From positions 1 to 64,000 of the forward strand of contig JAKQIY010000068.1 of the NCBI GenBank assembly GCA_029561455.1: a DNA stretch of 64,000 nt, given 5' to 3'. Shown here in pieces: positions 48,289-56,845 of this stretch. This stretch comes from a bacterium. GTDB taxonomy: Bacteria > Zhuqueibacterota > Zhuqueibacteria > Residuimicrobiales > Krinioviventaceae. Each line of letters opens with the position of its first letter. The first letter of the stretch is position 1. Made by a program: the position numbers and the translations under genes. The notes below the pieces were generated by a model. It saw only the letters and a program-made list of their open reading frames with translations, did no database searches and was not told the DNA's origin.

Positions 48289-51219
48289 ATGAAAAAAAGA
48301 TATATTCTGTTTTTTATTCTCGCTTTAATTCTGTTAATGAAAAACATGCCGCTTACTGCCGGTGAAATTATTGTGTGGGAAGATAAAACGCCATTTGCTA
48401 AAACAATTACTGAGGATGGCGTGCAAAAAGACTCAATGATCACCCTTGCGCCAATTTATAACTCGAGTGGTAATAATGTCAACCTGGATAATTTTACCCT
48501 GGGTGGTTATGATTGGGAATGGCCGTATAGCAGCATTGCCTTGGGCGCGGTAGAAGATATCGATGTGCGCAGCCTGGATGGACAGGATTTGTATCTGATC
48601 ACCGATCCACAGCGCAGTGTAACTCCTGGAGTGACCGGTAAAGTCTTTGTTTACAACCCGGCTGAAAAAAGAATAACCTGGGAATATACCGGCAGCCAAC
48701 TGGTACAGCCGGTTGATTCGTACGAGTTTTTTGAAAACGGCCAGTACCGCATTCTGGTTACCGATCGTGGGAATAATAAAGTTTTGCAGATAGGCCGCGA
48801 AACCCAGTCTATTGATTGGGAATATGGAAAAGCGGACGGATCGGAGGGAAGCGGACCCAACGAACTGTCGATTCCTGCCGATGCGGTAAAAATTGACGGC
48901 GCCGCTGAAGTACTTATCGCTGACCGTGGCAATAACCGGGTCATCATTGTCGATAAAGCCGGCAAAACCCCGGTCTGGCAATTTGGTTCGCCATCTCTCA
49001 AATCACCGGTTGATGTGGAATATATAACAGAAAGCGCCAGTGTGCTTATCACCGATTATGCCGATAACCGGGTATTGTTGGTGTCCCGCGCCACAACTGC
49101 AATCACCTGGCAATATCCCGATCCTTCGTTGGCCGGCGACCCGGTGTATGGTTTAAGCAGCCCCGTTGACGCCGATTACCTGGAAAACGGCCACATTCTG
49201 ATCGCCGATGCCGGTCATAACCGCATCATCGAAGTCGATCCGGCCGATAGTGAGTTTTTCTGGGAGTTAAAATTGACTGTTAACGGTCTGCGCGATATCG
49301 ATCAGATTGGTTCACAATCCACCGATAAAGACAAGTTACTGGTGGTAAAACTGAATGATGAATCCGGCAAGGCGCTGCCGGCGCGTATTGGCTTTCAGAG
49401 CGGCTGGCGCGAGTCGGATGTATTTGTTATCGAACGCGATGTCAATTTCGATTCCCTGTATTGGGATGCTGAAATTAATTCAGGTTCAACTACTTCACTG
49501 GAATTACAATTCCGCTCCGAAAGCGACGAAACCCGCCTGAAGCGAGCGGCGTGGCGCGGCCCGACTGGCGATACTCTGTCTACCTATACGGTTTCCGGCG
49601 CTAAATTACCGGCTATCCATTCGGGGCACCGGGTTTACCAGTACCGCGCTTTTCTTAAAACCGACAGTCCCAAAGACACCCCGGTACTGAAAAAGGTAAC
49701 GGTAAATTATTATTATTACAACACCAATAACTCAATTACACCCAAGCCTTACTTTTGGGCCTCATCAATCGGCGTTGCCAAAGCGGATTCCATGATCCCG
49801 AAATGGAAAGAATTTCATTACGAGTTAAAATTGCCTCAGGACCCTCTTAAGAGAAGTTCCGTGCAATTACTTTTTCGTTTTATCGAAAATAAAAGTCCCT
49901 ACCGCACCTTGTACGAATTTACCGCTTCGACCGAGGAAAGTAAAAACGTTTTAAACCTGGAAAATATCCCGGCACTGTGGGAAGCAACTTCGATCAACCT
50001 GAACGGATTCCCGAGCACCCTCAACTCTTCCGTTACCCCGGCCTTGATTAGCTGGCGGGTTGTATATGAAAAAATATTGTCGACAGCTTCGTCGATTCGT
50101 TTTGTTAATAGCGTCGGTGCGACCGCCAATGCCTACCTGGCAACAACCCCAGGCAATCAGCAGGAAGGCGAGGTCATGGATAATGTGAATATTATTTTGG
50201 ATGACAGTAACCTGGAAATGACGCGCACATATTATGATCTCCCGGTTAAATCTCTCAAATCGCATGATGATGAAACGATTACCCTTAATTTAAAACAAAA
50301 TTATTTCCAGAATAATATCGGAATGCCGATTGTCATATCCGCTAGCATCACCCCCGGCAATGATACACTAGAGGTTGCCGACCGGGATACGCTGATTATA
50401 AAATATATTGATACCAGCGATAGTACCGATGTCGCAAGCGATTCGATACTGGTTGTTCAGGCTACAACCGGCATTCTGACCCTGGAAAATGCCGCCGGCG
50501 CTGTTTTGAAAGAAGTTTTATATGGTCAGTCTGTGTTTGTGCATATCACCGGGGAACAGGATAAAAATCTTGATCCGGTCAAACAGGACTCTTTACAAGT
50601 GGTGCTGGACAATACCGCGCTGGATCGGGAAGAGGTAATGCTATATGAAATTGCCGCTAGCGGCTCTGTTTATAACAGCGGGAATTTTATCACCCGAGTC
50701 GGCATTCCGGTAACTGATAATAAAAACGGCGTTACCCAGGATGACGGCATCCTACAAAGCTCTGCCGACGGCAGTATACGCGCAACGTATACGGATAATG
50801 TGATCCTGACCAAATCTGTGCAGGTACCGGCTAACCCGGTTGTCAATATCGACCTGGGAGGCGAGCCTTATATTGTCGAAGTTGCTCCGAATCCTTATAA
50901 TGAGCGTACGGCAAGCCGGTTCAGTATGCGGGTCGCTTCGGCGACCGGTTCGCTGGTTGTGCGCTGGCTGGAAATTTATAATATTGCCGGTGAACTGGTT
51001 CGGAAAATTGACGGTAATGAATTGATGTTCGATACAGGCTCAACTGTGCCGGTCGAGCGTTATGGTGTGGTGGAAAACTGGTGGGATTTGACCAATGATG
51101 CCGGGCAAAAAGTAGCCAGTGGCACCTATTGGCTCAAGTTGTATGCGAATTTAACCCAGGAAGATACCAATCAAACCGTACAGATTGCCATTTTTCGCAA
51201 GTTTATAGTTATTCGTTAA
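48289..51219 (+). CDS. Large secreted beta-propeller protein with FlgD-like tail
   Basis: A 976-residue exported protein with a signal peptide (1-24). Residues about 80-330 hold at least four NHL/PQQ-like propeller repeats of the form ILVTDRGNNKVLQI, VLIADRGNNRVIIVD, VLITDYADNRVLLV, ILIADAGHNRIIEVD. The middle contains beta-sandwich units. The C-terminus (about 860-976; VEVAPNPYNERTASRF, EIYNIAGELVRKI, WWDLTNDAGQKVASGTYWLKL) is a FlgD-type Ig-like domain, which in this type of bacterium often serves as a sorting or attachment tail. It is probably at the cell surface and lies 55 bases before the PorV-OmpA-AMIN gene, so the two may work together. Confidence 0.8.
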   Translation: MKKRYILFFILALILLMKNMPLTAGEIIVWEDKTPFAKTITEDGVQKDSMITLAPIYNSSGNNVNLDNFTLGGYDWEWPYSSIALGAVEDIDVRSLDGQDLYLITDPQRSVTPGVTGKVFVYNPAEKRITWEYTGSQLVQPVDSYEFFENGQYRILVTDRGNNKVLQIGRETQSIDWEYGKADGSEGSGPNELSIPADAVKIDGAAEVLIADRGNNRVIIVDKAGKTPVWQFGSPSLKSPVDVEYITESASVLITDYADNRVLLVSRATTAITWQYPDPSLAGDPVYGLSSPVDADYLENGHILIADAGHNRIIEVDPADSEFFWELKLTVNGLRDIDQIGSQSTDKDKLLVVKLNDESGKALPARIGFQSGWRESDVFVIERDVNFDSLYWDAEINSGSTTSLELQFRSESDETRLKRAAWRGPTGDTLSTYTVSGAKLPAIHSGHRVYQYRAFLKTDSPKDTPVLKKVTVNYYYYNTNNSITPKPYFWASSIGVAKADSMIPKWKEFHYELKLPQDPLKRSSVQLLFRFIENKSPYRTLYEFTASTEESKNVLNLENIPALWEATSINLNGFPSTLNSSVTPALISWRVVYEKILSTASSIRFVNSVGATANAYLATTPGNQQEGEVMDNVNIILDDSNLEMTRTYYDLPVKSLKSHDDETITLNLKQNYFQNNIGMPIVISASITPGNDTLEVADRDTLIIKYIDTSDSTDVASDSILVVQATTGILTLENAAGAVLKEVLYGQSVFVHITGEQDKNLDPVKQDSLQVVLDNTALDREEVMLYEIAASGSVYNSGNFITRVGIPVTDNKNGVTQDDGILQSSADGSIRATYTDNVILTKSVQVPANPVVNIDLGGEPYIVEVAPNPYNERTASRFSMRVASATGSLVVRWLEIYNIAGELVRKIDGNELMFDTGSTVPVERYGVVENWWDLTNDAGQKVASGTYWLKLYANLTQEDTNQTVQIAIFRKFIVIR

Positions 51220-51274: not shown

Positions 51275-53119
51275 ATGAATAAAGCGTTATACCTGCAAAT
51301 ACAATCAAAAAGAGTTTTCATGCTGTCGAAGGTATTCTGGCTGACCTGCTATGCGGTTTTTTTATCCCTGTTAACCGGAATGACCTATCCGGCAAGCAAT
51401 AATGGAATCGGCTATAGCGGCGCGCCGTTTTTACGGGTCAGCTCTTCGGCCCGCCAGGTGGCTATGGGGGAAGCGTTTTCAGCAATCGCCGATGATATTA
51501 ACCTGATGCGTTATAATGTCGGTGGTTTGGGACAAATCAACACCGAAATGCTGGCCGTTAATTTTCATAACTGGATCGATGATACCCAGCAGGGCTCATT
51601 TGCATTAGCTTTTCCCAATAAATATGGAGTAATGGGGATTGATTTTACTTATTTTGATGAAGGTAAAATTGAAGAATTGAGTGAAAATTTCAATAAAACC
51701 GGCGGCACCACGACTAGTGACGATATCTTGCTGAATGTCGGCTTTGGCACCCGTCTCGGCTACCGGGATTATGTTGTAAATGTCGGCGCCAGTTTCAAGT
51801 TCTTGCAGCAAACTTTGGCCGGACAACGCAGCAATGCGTTTGCTTTCGATGTCGGCGCCCGTTTTCCTCTCAAATATATGATTTTAGGCGCAACTATACA
51901 AAATATCGGCATTAATAAAACCAAATTTCAAGATCTGTCATCGCCTTTACCAACCACCTTCCGGTTTGGCGGCGCCACCAGTTTTGGTCGTACCGAGACC
52001 TTGCTGTTGAACGTGGCCGGTGATGTCGGCTGGACTGTAAAAGAAAATTTGCGATATTACCTGGGCGGAGAACTGATGATCAGTGAATTGCTGTCGTTAC
52101 GAACCGGTTACCAGTTCCATCATGTCGCCGCCAGCCCTTTTTCAGCGGGTTTCGGCCTGAACATCCCTATGGCGTGGCTGGCTCGTTCGCAAACCCGGTT
52201 CGATTATGCCTATTCACCCCTCGATGCTTTTGATACGGATATTCATCGCTTCTCAATGCTGTTCGTTTTCGGCGCCGCTAAAGAAAATGTTGATTACAGC
52301 CGGTTATTGCAGGATGAACTTGATGCGGCCAGAAAATCACGCCTTGCTTTGCAGCAACTCGAAGACGAAATGGCGCGCCGTTTAGCCAGGGCCAAACAGA
52401 TCGCCGCCGAAAGCCAGGGTAAAATCGAAGTAGAGCAGAAAGGTAAAAATAAAGTACTGGTCAGTATGCGCATTAATTTTGATTTTGATAAATCGGATAT
52501 TCGCCAGGCCGATTTTAATACCGTTAACCAGGTTGGCGATATTTTACGTACTTATCCCGAAGCCAAGGTATTCGTCTCCGGGCATACGGACAGCATTGGC
52601 ACGGACTGGTATAATATACGCTTGTCGCAACGGCGCATCGAAAGTGTTATCACTTATTTGAAACTGCAAAAGAATTTCCCCGATGATGTTTTTTATATGC
52701 CTATCGGGTATGGCGAATTGCGACCGGTTGCGGATAACGGCAGCGAAGCAGGCCGTTCCCGTAACCGCAGAGTCGAATTTATGCTATTTACTTTTTCTAC
52801 AACACCTGAATTACCGGAAGGCTCTGCATTAAAAACTGTTCGGGCCGTTGATGATGAAACAATACATATCGTCTGCAACGGCAAGGTTGACTTTAAAGTC
52901 AAAACCTTAACCGAACCGGATCGGCTTATCATCGATATTCCGGATATTTACATGCTATCCGATGTTAAGGAAATTGTTCTGAATCGCGGACCCTTTATCC
53001 GCGCCCGGTTGGGCTTTCATCGCGACGGGCCGTTTACGCGGGTCGTATTCGATCTGAACCGGCCCATCAAGCCGGACGTGGAAACCACCGAAAACCTGGT
53101 GATTGTACGGGCAAAATAA
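51275..53119 (+). CDS. PorV-like outer-membrane barrel fused to OmpA and AMIN domains
   Basis: A 614-residue envelope protein. After a signal sequence (about 15-40), residues about 45-335 resemble PorV/PorQ (UPF0164) barrels (APFLRVSSSARQVAMGEAFSAIADD, NPxG-like NVGGLGQI). A coiled-coil linker (about 345-390) leads to an OmpA peptidoglycan-binding domain (about 393-505; INFDFDKSDIR, GHTDSIGTDWYNIRLSQRR, GRSRNRRVEF). The end (522-614) is an AMIN domain (TEPDRLIIDIPDI, FTRVVFDLNRP). PorV proteins serve type IX secretion; OmpA and AMIN bind the cell wall. I infer a wall-anchored barrel for surface protein export or assembly. The next hairpin is at 53162. Confidence 0.82.
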   Translation: MNKALYLQIQSKRVFMLSKVFWLTCYAVFLSLLTGMTYPASNNGIGYSGAPFLRVSSSARQVAMGEAFSAIADDINLMRYNVGGLGQINTEMLAVNFHNWIDDTQQGSFALAFPNKYGVMGIDFTYFDEGKIEELSENFNKTGGTTTSDDILLNVGFGTRLGYRDYVVNVGASFKFLQQTLAGQRSNAFAFDVGARFPLKYMILGATIQNIGINKTKFQDLSSPLPTTFRFGGATSFGRTETLLLNVAGDVGWTVKENLRYYLGGELMISELLSLRTGYQFHHVAASPFSAGFGLNIPMAWLARSQTRFDYAYSPLDAFDTDIHRFSMLFVFGAAKENVDYSRLLQDELDAARKSRLALQQLEDEMARRLARAKQIAAESQGKIEVEQKGKNKVLVSMRINFDFDKSDIRQADFNTVNQVGDILRTYPEAKVFVSGHTDSIGTDWYNIRLSQRRIESVITYLKLQKNFPDDVFYMPIGYGELRPVADNGSEAGRSRNRRVEFMLFTFSTTPELPEGSALKTVRAVDDETIHIVCNGKVDFKVKTLTEPDRLIIDIPDIYMLSDVKEIVLNRGPFIRARLGFHRDGPFTRVVFDLNRPIKPDVETTENLVIVRAK

Positions 53120-53321: not shown

Positions 53322-54347
53322 ATGTTGAACAATGATCACGATAGAAAGAAAGTAATGCGTTTTTCAATCTTGACAATTTTAGCCTTTTTAGGCATTATGC
53401 TGGGCTGCCACCAGTCTTCCAACGCTGTGGACAATGCCGCAACCGCCAGTTTTACTTTTTTTTATACCAATGATATTATGGGTTACGTGACCCCCTGTGG
53501 GTGACGAACGGCACGCTATGGCGGGTTGGCCCGGAGGGCTACCTTTATCAACGATCATATCGACAGCACCGATTTTGCTATGTTTATCGATGCCGGTGGT
53601 TTTGCCCGCGGCGGCGGCGATATAGGTAAACTGTACACCAATTACCTGTTGCGCGGCATGGCTGATCTGGGCTATACTGTTTTTAATTTATCGTACCGTG
53701 ATTTTATTACCGGCGGTAATATTTTAAAGGACTTGAGTAATAAACATAATGTCGAATTTATTGCTTCCAATACCTTCTATAAAGATAACGGCAAACCCTT
53801 TACCGAACCTTACCTGGTAAAGACCATAAAACCACACAGTTCCGGCAAATCCCTGCCGGTTGATAAAATCCGGGTTGGTATTGTCGGTATGTGCGATGAA
53901 TACGGTTTGTTGTTTTCCAAACAAATAAAGGAACCGATGCTGGAAGCAAAGCCGCCGCTTGACTTTGCGGAAAAACTCATTGCCCAGGTACGTAAAAAGG
54001 CGGATATTGTTGTATTATTATATAATGGTAACTATGCCAAATTAAAACCGATCCTGGAAACTGTTAAAGGCATCGATGTAACGATCATGGGCGGCCAGTA
54101 TTATATGGTAACCCCGAATGACCATTTTGAATCGATCATTGTTTCCACCCCCAGTATGGGCAAGTATGGCGGTCTGTTGACGCTGCAATTGGATAATAAA
54201 AAGAAAATCGTCTCACACCGAAATGAAAACATTCCTTTAAAGGAAGATATGCAGGACGACCCGGCCATGCTCAAACTGATTAAAGAGTTTGAAGAGGCGG
54301 AGAAGAAATTACAAGATGAAACGATATACAGTTCTTCATCACACTGA
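53322..54347 (+). CDS. Putative selenoprotein: UshA/5'-nucleotidase-like lipoprotein with in-frame TGA (Sec)
   Basis: A 341-codon gene with one in-frame TGA (53502-53504, codon 61). Before it comes a lipoprotein signal (MLGC; ATG 53322 or, perhaps more likely, ATG 53355) and FYTNDIMGYVTPCG. After it, in the same frame, the text resumes RTARYGGLARRATFIND and runs 281 more codons. From memory, related UshA-like metallophosphoesterase lipoproteins read PCGC-x5-GGLARRAT here, so the TGA falls on the second cysteine. A SECIS-like hairpin starts 19 nt later (listed separately). I read TGA as selenocysteine in a CGU motif. Metal ligands usual in this fold look lost (DIM for DxH, DAGG for DAGD), so a redox role is more likely than phosphatase action. 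Alternatives are a nonsense mutation or a base-calling error. Confidence 0.75.
53524..53543 (+). promoter_or_regulatory. SECIS-like hairpin
   Basis: Downstream of the in-frame TGA the RNA can fold as outer stem GGU/ACC, a bulged U, inner stem GGCCC/GGGCU (one G-U pair) and apical loop GGA. Bulged U and GG in the loop are the features of the E. coli fdhF SECIS, whose core has the same outer stem GGU-U...ACC. The loop lies about 28 nt after the TGA, within the usual bacterial range. It overlaps codons for GLARRAT and uses a CGG-AGG Arg pair that is uncommon nearby. Confidence 0.65.
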
Positions 54348-54418: not shown

Positions 54419-56845
54419 ATGTCCGGTCGATATATCTCGGGAAAAACCGATTCTTCCTTGTACAAGATACAGCTTTCCGGAGCAAAAGCGACACGACTCG
54501 CTATTTTACAAACGCAGGGTTTCCCGGTACCGGATTTTTTTGTAATTAATACCAATGCATTTAAAAAATATGCGGCAAAAACCGACGCTCATTCCCGCCG
54601 GCAATTGTTAAGGCTTGTCAGGCATGGAATTGCAAAGTATTTTGGTTCCGATGAAATTACTTATAACCTGGCGGTGCGTTCATCGGCGCCGTTCGAAGAT
54701 CACGCCGCTTTTTCCCTTGCCGGTCAATTTAAATCATTTCTTAATATTTATGATCCCGATTCCCTGGTTGAAGCCCTCATTGATTGCTGGGATTCGATGC
54801 GGTCCGGTCATGTTCAGGCCTATTTGCGGCAATTCAATTTTTCGCAGAAAAGGTCTGCTATGGGTGTTATTGTGCAAAAAATGTTACAACCAGATTATGC
54901 CGGAGTTTTATTCACTCGACACCCGGTTACCGGTGATGAAAAGATCATCCTTATCGAAATTGTTCGCGGGGTTGGTGAATCACTGGTCTCCGGAGCCAAC
55001 GAACCGGTGCGTCTCCTAGTCGAACGCGATGAACCGCTAAATATAAAAATTTACGGCAGGGAAGAGGAAACCCTTTTTTTAAAGGAAAATTCTGCATTTA
55101 CCCCATTTATTCACAACCTGGTAAAAAAATCGCTGGCAATAGAAAAATTATTCGGTGCGCCCCAGGATATTGAATGGGCATGCGAAAAAGATCATCTCTG
55201 GTTCCTGCAAACCCGACCGATAACACACACCGTCAGCCGTGAACGCACCAAAGTCGATACCGACGGTAATATCTGGACCGATTATTTTTTTGCCGAACGG
55301 TTTACCGAACCATTATCGCCGCTGGGTTGGTCAATTTTGCGCAAGTGGGTTGTTAAAAATGCTTTTCGAGAACCATTATTTTTCCTGGGCTATGCCCGTT
55401 TAGCCCGGCAAAAAGAACTTGCAAAATTAATTGACGGTTATCCATTTACCCGTATTACCGTTTTTCAGCAGCTTTATGCTCCCATTCCGCTGCGGTTTAT
55501 TTCCCATGACAAGCAAACCTCATTATTATTGCAAAACCGCTCCAGTAAATGGTTATGGGAACTGATCAAGATCACTCCGTCAATCGTACGACTGGTGCTC
55601 CTTAAAGACTTTAACTGGCTGCCTAAAGTGAATATCAGGCAGTGGAAGAAATTCGTTCGTTTTAATAAACTATCACTTGAAGGTTTAACTGTTCGTCTTG
55701 AAGCTGATTGTGATCCGTTAGACGTTTTTAAACAGTCCGAGGAGTTGACTAATACTTTTTTGGCGTTGCATCGCTGGAGTATTACATTTGCCGATATCTT
55801 TTATGTGATTTTACAGAAATTTCTCTATCTGCTAAAACCCACCGCCGATTGCGATAAACTGCTCTCGGATTTGGTATCGGGACTGGAAAATGACACTGTA
55901 AAAGCAAATCGTGAACTGTTAAACAGCGACCATACCGATACGGCAATACACAATTTTTTGCAGAAATATGGTCATCGCTCCGAAAGCCTCGATATTTATC
56001 ATCCCTGCTGGGCGGATGATCCGGCGATGATTAAAACCCTGGCCGGAAGGATTTATAACGCCAACAAAGCCGAATCCGCGCGCCGGGAATTTATTGAACG
56101 GGTAAACATCCGCCGTAATGCTGAAAACACTTGTAATTGTAAAATATCCCGTTTGCTGCCCGGTTATCGTTTCATGATTGGCTATTTATTTCATATCATT
56201 CTCTATTATACCCAGGGCTTTACCCTGTTACGCGAAAACCAGCGCAGTGAATGGCATCGAATTCTTGCCGTTATGCGGCATTCTGCACTTTTGTATGGTA
56301 AACAACTTGAACACAACGGCATTCTTCAAGCTGCCGACGATGTTTTTTTTCTTACCCGCCGGGAATTATTTACAATTAACAAATACCAAGCCGGTATTCA
56401 ACCATTGGTACAACAACGGCGGCAACAACGTGACCGGCATCTGATCCGTGATAATATTCAGCAATTAGCCGGCAATGTTCGTGAAGAGAGCGGATTGCTT
56501 GGTTCCGGGCGCCTTGAAGGTTTTGGCGTCAGCAAGGGTATTATTCGCGGCCGGGCGCATGTGGCCCGTTCATTCCGTGAAGCGGGCCAGGCTAGCAGTG
56601 ATGAAATATTGGTAGCTCATTCCGCCGATCCTGCCTGGTCGCCTATTTTCAGCATGATCTCCGGCATGGTTCTGGAAACCGGCGGTATTTTATCTCATGC
56701 TTCAATCGTGGCGCGCGAATTCGGTTTACCCACTGTTACCGGTGTTGCCCGTGCCACCGATGTTATTCAAACCGGCGATTGGCTGGAAATTAACGGCGAG
56801 ACCGGTATAGTACAAATCCTGACTCATGAATCCGGTAAAAGTTAA
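54419..56845 (+). CDS. PEP-synthase/rifampin-phosphotransferase-like protein
   Basis: An 808-residue phosphotransferase-type protein. The N-terminal ATP-grasp (PPDK_N) domain has GAKATRLAILQTQGFPVPDFF, AVRSSAPFEDHAAFSLAGQF, MLQPDYAGVLFTRHPVTGD and EWACEKDHLWFLQTRPI. A middle region of about 400 residues with FTEPLSPLGWSILRKWV is as in Rph-type proteins. The C-terminal swivelling domain carries the phospho-histidine in GGILSHASIVAREFGLP (His760). The order ATP-grasp, middle, His domain matches rifampin phosphotransferase more than PpsA, which has a PEP-binding barrel at the end. The substrate is unknown and antibiotic resistance is not implied. Its end abuts or overlaps the helicase gene. Confidence 0.82.
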   Translation: MSGRYISGKTDSSLYKIQLSGAKATRLAILQTQGFPVPDFFVINTNAFKKYAAKTDAHSRRQLLRLVRHGIAKYFGSDEITYNLAVRSSAPFEDHAAFSLAGQFKSFLNIYDPDSLVEALIDCWDSMRSGHVQAYLRQFNFSQKRSAMGVIVQKMLQPDYAGVLFTRHPVTGDEKIILIEIVRGVGESLVSGANEPVRLLVERDEPLNIKIYGREEETLFLKENSAFTPFIHNLVKKSLAIEKLFGAPQDIEWACEKDHLWFLQTRPITHTVSRERTKVDTDGNIWTDYFFAERFTEPLSPLGWSILRKWVVKNAFREPLFFLGYARLARQKELAKLIDGYPFTRITVFQQLYAPIPLRFISHDKQTSLLLQNRSSKWLWELIKITPSIVRLVLLKDFNWLPKVNIRQWKKFVRFNKLSLEGLTVRLEADCDPLDVFKQSEELTNTFLALHRWSITFADIFYVILQKFLYLLKPTADCDKLLSDLVSGLENDTVKANRELLNSDHTDTAIHNFLQKYGHRSESLDIYHPCWADDPAMIKTLAGRIYNANKAESARREFIERVNIRRNAENTCNCKISRLLPGYRFMIGYLFHIILYYTQGFTLLRENQRSEWHRILAVMRHSALLYGKQLEHNGILQAADDVFFLTRRELFTINKYQAGIQPLVQQRRQQRDRHLIRDNIQQLAGNVREESGLLGSGRLEGFGVSKGIIRGRAHVARSFREAGQASSDEILVAHSADPAWSPIFSMISGMVLETGGILSHASIVAREFGLPTVTGVARATDVIQTGDWLEINGETGIVQILTHESGKS

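Follow-up and report, generated by a model that had tools for sequence, protein, structure and literature searches.

The window, by which we mean the whole stretch of 64,000 nucleotides that was analysed (contig JAKQIY010000068.1 of assembly GCA_029561455.1), carries on its forward strand a gene for an UshA-like protein with a candidate selenocysteine (Table 1). The frame from 53322 to 54347 is open apart from a single stop, a TGA, as the earlier note on this DNA had stated and as is seen both in the sequence and in its translation. The proline preceding the Cys-Gly-Sec motif makes it Pro-Cys-Gly-Sec, or PCGU with the selenocysteine last. The earlier note let the gene begin at 53322; the ATG at 53355 is the better start, because the relatives start there and because a lipoprotein-like signal opens there and ends at Cys18. 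Residues 15-18 read MLGC, which by eye resembles a lipobox and has similar counterparts in close family members; other members lack the lipobox and have, again by eye, ordinary-looking signal peptides instead. The protein is probably exported and lipid-anchored.

Table 1. Features of the UshA-like selenoprotein locus in the window
Feature	Position	Strand	Description	Basis
NHL / FlgD-Ig-like protein	48289..51219	+	976 aa, conserved upstream neighbour	Pfam, weak domain matches; 13 loci
OmpA + AMIN domain protein	51275..53119	+	614 aa, conserved upstream neighbour	Pfam; adjacent in 13 loci
Alternative upstream ATG of the UshA-like selenoprotein gene	53322	+		
UshA-like selenoprotein gene (predicted)	53355..54347	+	330 aa, putative Sec at residue 50	translation, start by relatives
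Signal peptide with lipobox-like end (putative)	53355..53408	+	...GIMLG/C, Cys18	by eye; ILLA/C, LLFG/C, LLIG/C in family members
Cys-Gly-Sec motif	53496..53504	+	TGT GGG TGA	columns invariant in 32 relatives
UGA, predicted selenocysteine codon	53502..53504	+		TGA in 55 copies, TGC in one; Sec genes in genome
SECIS hairpin (predicted)	53524..53543	+		fold; covariation at two third-codon positions
Pyruvate phosphate dikinase-like / PEP-utilising protein	54419..56845	+	conserved downstream neighbour	Pfam; 8 loci

Across the order to which the organism belongs, and with some gaps, the genes follow one another in a conserved succession: NHL/FlgD-Ig-like protein, OmpA-AMIN protein, then the selenoprotein, a PEP-utilising protein and a helicase. 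The two upstream neighbours look like envelope proteins.

The protein matches the NCBIfam model NF041198 (UshA_like_PCGU) with 135.3 bits (E 2.4e-39) over model positions 6-311. Its N-terminal domain is homologous to that of the model and the PCGU motif is common to both, but the protein has 330 amino acids against 519 model positions, and its score lies under the cut-off of 275. The C-terminal domain of the model (about positions 340-519) is absent, the frame ending after residue 330. Among 82 genomes from the phylum, no more than five have a match that attains the NF041198 cut-off. A second model, NF049981 (UshA-like family 2), is matched weakly, with 29 bits over residues 45-84 around the motif; this is under its cut-off of 140, and its listed motif is CxxU whereas that of the window protein is CxU.

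In a profile comparison with solved structures, 5'-nucleotidases, UshA and SoxB were matched, and an AlphaFold model of the protein (pLDDT 88) superimposed on UshA with Z 30 and an rmsd of 3.5 over 286 aligned residues, on CD73 with Z 29 and on SoxB with Z 27. The protein is thus predicted to keep the calcineurin-like metallophosphoesterase domain fold of UshA, CD73 and SoxB. Of the earlier description as an UshA-like lipoprotein, the UshA fold is supported by these comparisons, and a putative lipobox by eye.

The superfamily likeness is one of fold and profile; it does not extend to the catalytic site. With canonical UshA-type paralogues of about 520 amino acids from related genomes as ligand references, the window protein has NDIM in place of NDFH, DAGG in place of DAGD, SYRDF in place of GNHEF, YNGN in place of SHMG and MGGQY in place of GGHSH. 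From the di-metal ligand set (D-x-H, GD, GNHE, H, GHxH) it retains the first Asp only, and, unlike UshA, CD73 and SoxB, it lacks the catalytic His and the C-terminal domain and has Cys-Gly-Sec. The His of motif I is retained in one of 32 relatives, the Asn and His of motif III in none, and the catalytic His is replaced by Arg or Lys in 29. The motif I and motif III His are missing from longer members as well, among them some that score over the NF041198 cut-off. The same paralogues, which have no stops, had been considered as cysteine controls and were set aside: alignment succeeded for four, and these proved to be ordinary UshA-type enzymes that have every ligand and lack a CGC motif.

Since almost all metal ligands are lost in the window protein, and the motif I His and the motif III Asn and His in nearly all relatives, the canonical di-metal phosphatase mechanism is unlikely. 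It might still be argued that the protein is a metal-dependent phosphoesterase or a SoxB-like hydrolase, in which Cys-Gly-Sec only tunes or guards the site. The fold match to UshA, CD73 and SoxB speaks for such a hydrolase, as does the retention in some relatives of the motif II Asp, the motif IV His and the motif V His, some members of other families keeping two or three metal ligands. Against this, the window protein is left with a single ligand and nearly all relatives carry Arg or Lys at the catalytic position, and we consider a surviving hydrolase improbable. A selenoprotein that has lost its phosphatase site is the reading we hold with high confidence.

That the UGA would be read as selenocysteine is supported by comparison with relatives, most of the named ones being metagenome-assembled genomes of candidate division KSB1. 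A scan of genome contigs with the single protein as query gave no match; the scan for relatives used the alignment A2, the alignment A1 being too diverse as a query. In a set of 99 related genomes, almost every one of the closer homologues is interrupted by exactly one stop, a TGA. Scattered stops, which the earlier note had named as evidence against its proposal, were not seen. In a motif search over the retrieved KSB1 loci, 55 distinct copies were found to carry TGA at this codon, and a single copy has TGC instead. The earlier note had expected TGA in the relatives of the organism and Cys in most homologues; the first expectation was borne out and the second was not, nearly all copies in the phylum having TGA. 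Protein identity drops from 60% to about 25% while the frame stays intact on either side of the codon, in agreement with the earlier view that the two parts belong to one family and one frame. The motif is nearly invariant in the family; in an alignment of 32 sequences, with Sec counted as Cys, residues Cys48, Gly49, 50, Gly56-Gly57 and Arg60-Arg61 are invariant.

The TGC copy sits in a genome of the same class (G031) that is 96% complete. In this genome no SelA (best match 24 bits) and no SelB above the cut-off was found, a tRNA-Leu is the top match for tRNA-Sec, and the sequence after the codon no longer forms the hairpin described below. G031 can be read as a natural control: it shows one Sec-to-Cys switch, and neither Sec genes nor the hairpin could be detected in it. 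Four TGA-bearing genomes have no selA in their assemblies (G007, G035, G039 and G057); G007 and G057 are also without selB, G035 and G039 have SelB, and all four have a tRNA-Sec, so that assembly gaps are the likely cause.

The genome from which the window comes, that of an uncultured bacterium of the KSB1 phylum (5.85 Mb, 98.8% complete), has all four genes, selA, selB, selC and selD, the absence of which the earlier note had regarded as fatal. SelA was matched with 571 bits, SelB with 345 bits and SelD with 379 bits (locus L018, C50:115239-116165), and a tRNA-Sec with the anticodon UCA was found with 63 bits at C29:10364-10455 (L001). The SelD gene, too, carries a single in-frame TGA, which falls within the motif CAGU, and it is predicted to encode a selenoprotein; Rfam found only tRNAs on its locus. 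A tRNA-Sec gene was also detected in six of eight relatives tested (L152-L157). In a published survey of KSB1, selA, selB and selD were reported and no selC (PMC9012183). The statement that KSB1 genomes lack selC is not borne out, since selC is present in this genome and in its relatives.

On another contig of the same genome there are two near-identical tRNA-Sec-like RNAs with the anticodon UCA, both on the minus strand (C67:20481-20578 and C67:23758-23855; L002 and L004). They score 53.7 and 48.0 bits to RF01852, have no encoded CCA and were detected by ARAGORN in intron mode only. They might decode UGA, either as allo-tRNA or in the manner of selC*.

Downstream of the UGA the RNA can fold exactly as the earlier note had drawn it, into an outer stem GGU (53524-53526) with ACC (53541-53543), a bulged U (53527), an inner stem GGCCC (53528-53532) with GGGCU (53536-53540) and a loop GGA (53533-53535). 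The loop, which carries a G at its apex, starts 28 nt past the UGA; in bacterial SECIS elements this distance is 16-37 nt, the range used by bSECISearch. The SECIS of E. coli fdhF has GU in its loop. The close resemblance to this element that had been claimed holds in part only: relatives do not conserve the bulged U, and the loop, GGA or GGC, has no GU. Taken alone, the window hairpin folds no better than shuffled sequences (RNAfold, z 0.27 for 50 nt and z -1.04 for 28 nt); a SECIS argument from the single sequence is therefore weak, and it is the comparative evidence that carries the case.

In the 41 distinct copies with this main hairpin, one stem pair joins the third position of an Ala codon to that of the second Arg codon; it is U-A in 32, C-G in eight and U-G in one, with no mismatch (Fisher p 9e-8, the relatedness of the copies not being corrected for). 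Both the U-A and the C-G form occur within each of five families (f1, f2, f6, f7 and f8), and the double change therefore probably arose several times. Over the whole stem 89% of the cells are paired, against 26-44% when the stem is slid. The first Arg codon of the hairpin is CGG in 40 of the 41 copies, as compared with 15% of the Arg codons elsewhere in these genes, and AGG makes up 3.1% of the Arg codons in the window; the earlier note had described the CGG-AGG pair as uncommon nearby.

In 12 copies belonging to two families (f9 and f11; L076, L125-L135) a different hairpin lies nearer to the UGA; the protein motif that it overlaps is unchanged and reads GGLA(R/K)R. Most of these copies have the apical loop GGUCU; L128 and L129 have a GGCG-GUAU-CGCC stem in its place. 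The SECIS appears to have moved along the mRNA towards the UGA in these two families.

Insertion of selenocysteine is well supported because the TGA is conserved, the Sec genes are present, the hairpin covaries and the TGC copy sits in a genome without detected Sec genes; we are nearly certain that the UGA is read in this way. Decoding as Cys or Ser by another tRNA with a UCA anticodon has to be considered in view of the two additional tRNA-Sec-like genes of this genome and of the selC* tRNA-Cys with UCA anticodons described elsewhere (PMC7609411). A canonical tRNA-Sec stands beside SelA, SelB and SelD in the same genome, covariation maintains a SECIS hairpin and the codon is TGC just where Sec genes were not detected, all of which make such decoding very improbable. 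A sequencing error, a pseudogene or a true stop that ends a short peptide, for which it can be said that the TGA splits the gene, is ruled out for practical purposes by the conservation of this one codon, with no other stop in frame, in 55 copies from independent genomes.

From these findings the following mechanism can be proposed. The ribosome would decode the UGA via tRNA-Sec and SelB, steered by the downstream hairpin, and the resulting selenoprotein would be exported and probably lipid-anchored. It would keep the metallophosphoesterase fold, the metal ligands (almost all), the catalytic His and the C-terminal domain being gone, and the invariant Cys-Gly-Sec beside the invariant Gly-Gly and Arg-Arg may constitute a new active or binding site. 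Cys48 and Sec50 could form a reversible selenenylsulfide, which would be suited to an exported thiol/selenol oxidoreductase or to a peroxide-reducing function. Alternatively, the site might bind a soft metal or a chalcogen ligand. A redox role is our first choice, held at somewhat less than even confidence, with soft-metal or chalcogen binding ranked next; as no thioredoxin-like partner gene lies adjacent to the selenoprotein gene, it is the motif that speaks for it. Given the lost ligands, the nearly invariant motif and the envelope-type neighbours, we would expect a lipid-anchored, exported protein with a redox or selenolate function and not a nucleotidase. The full picture, in which a protein of the phosphoesterase fold was rebuilt as an envelope selenolate protein for redox, soft-metal or chalcogen chemistry, with Sec in nearly all KSB1 holders and with the SECIS moved in f9 and f11, is put forward only tentatively.

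The earlier note was not aware of any selenoprotein described for this family, and the novelty that it implied does not hold. UshA-like (COG0737) selenoproteins with a CxU motif have been known since the ocean survey of 2008 (PMC2398784), they are listed in reviews of 2022 and 2026 (PMC9312934, PMC13188914), and NCBIfam holds the two models for them that were mentioned above. By its sequence the window protein can be placed as a divergent, shortened, single-domain relative of these described proteins. What is added here is the single-domain branch under the model cut-off, the near-fixed Sec across the phylum and the matched control in which Sec was lost, and also the relocated SECIS and the loss of the metal site. 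No function of UshA-like selenoproteins was found in the survey and the reviews that list them (PMC2398784, PMC9312934, PMC13188914). Their name hints at a nucleotidase; the ligand alignment makes an ordinary metallophosphatase unlikely and so redirects functional tests. The KSB1 genomes offer a clean evolutionary case, with Sec kept almost everywhere and a single switch from Sec to Cys, and the selC finding corrects the published note on this group (PMC9012183). One further copy, which shares 51% identity with the KSB1 gene, is found in a sequence labelled Actinomycetota (L141, JAACEJ010000392.1); the label is probably wrong, because the copy sits in the family of the window protein.
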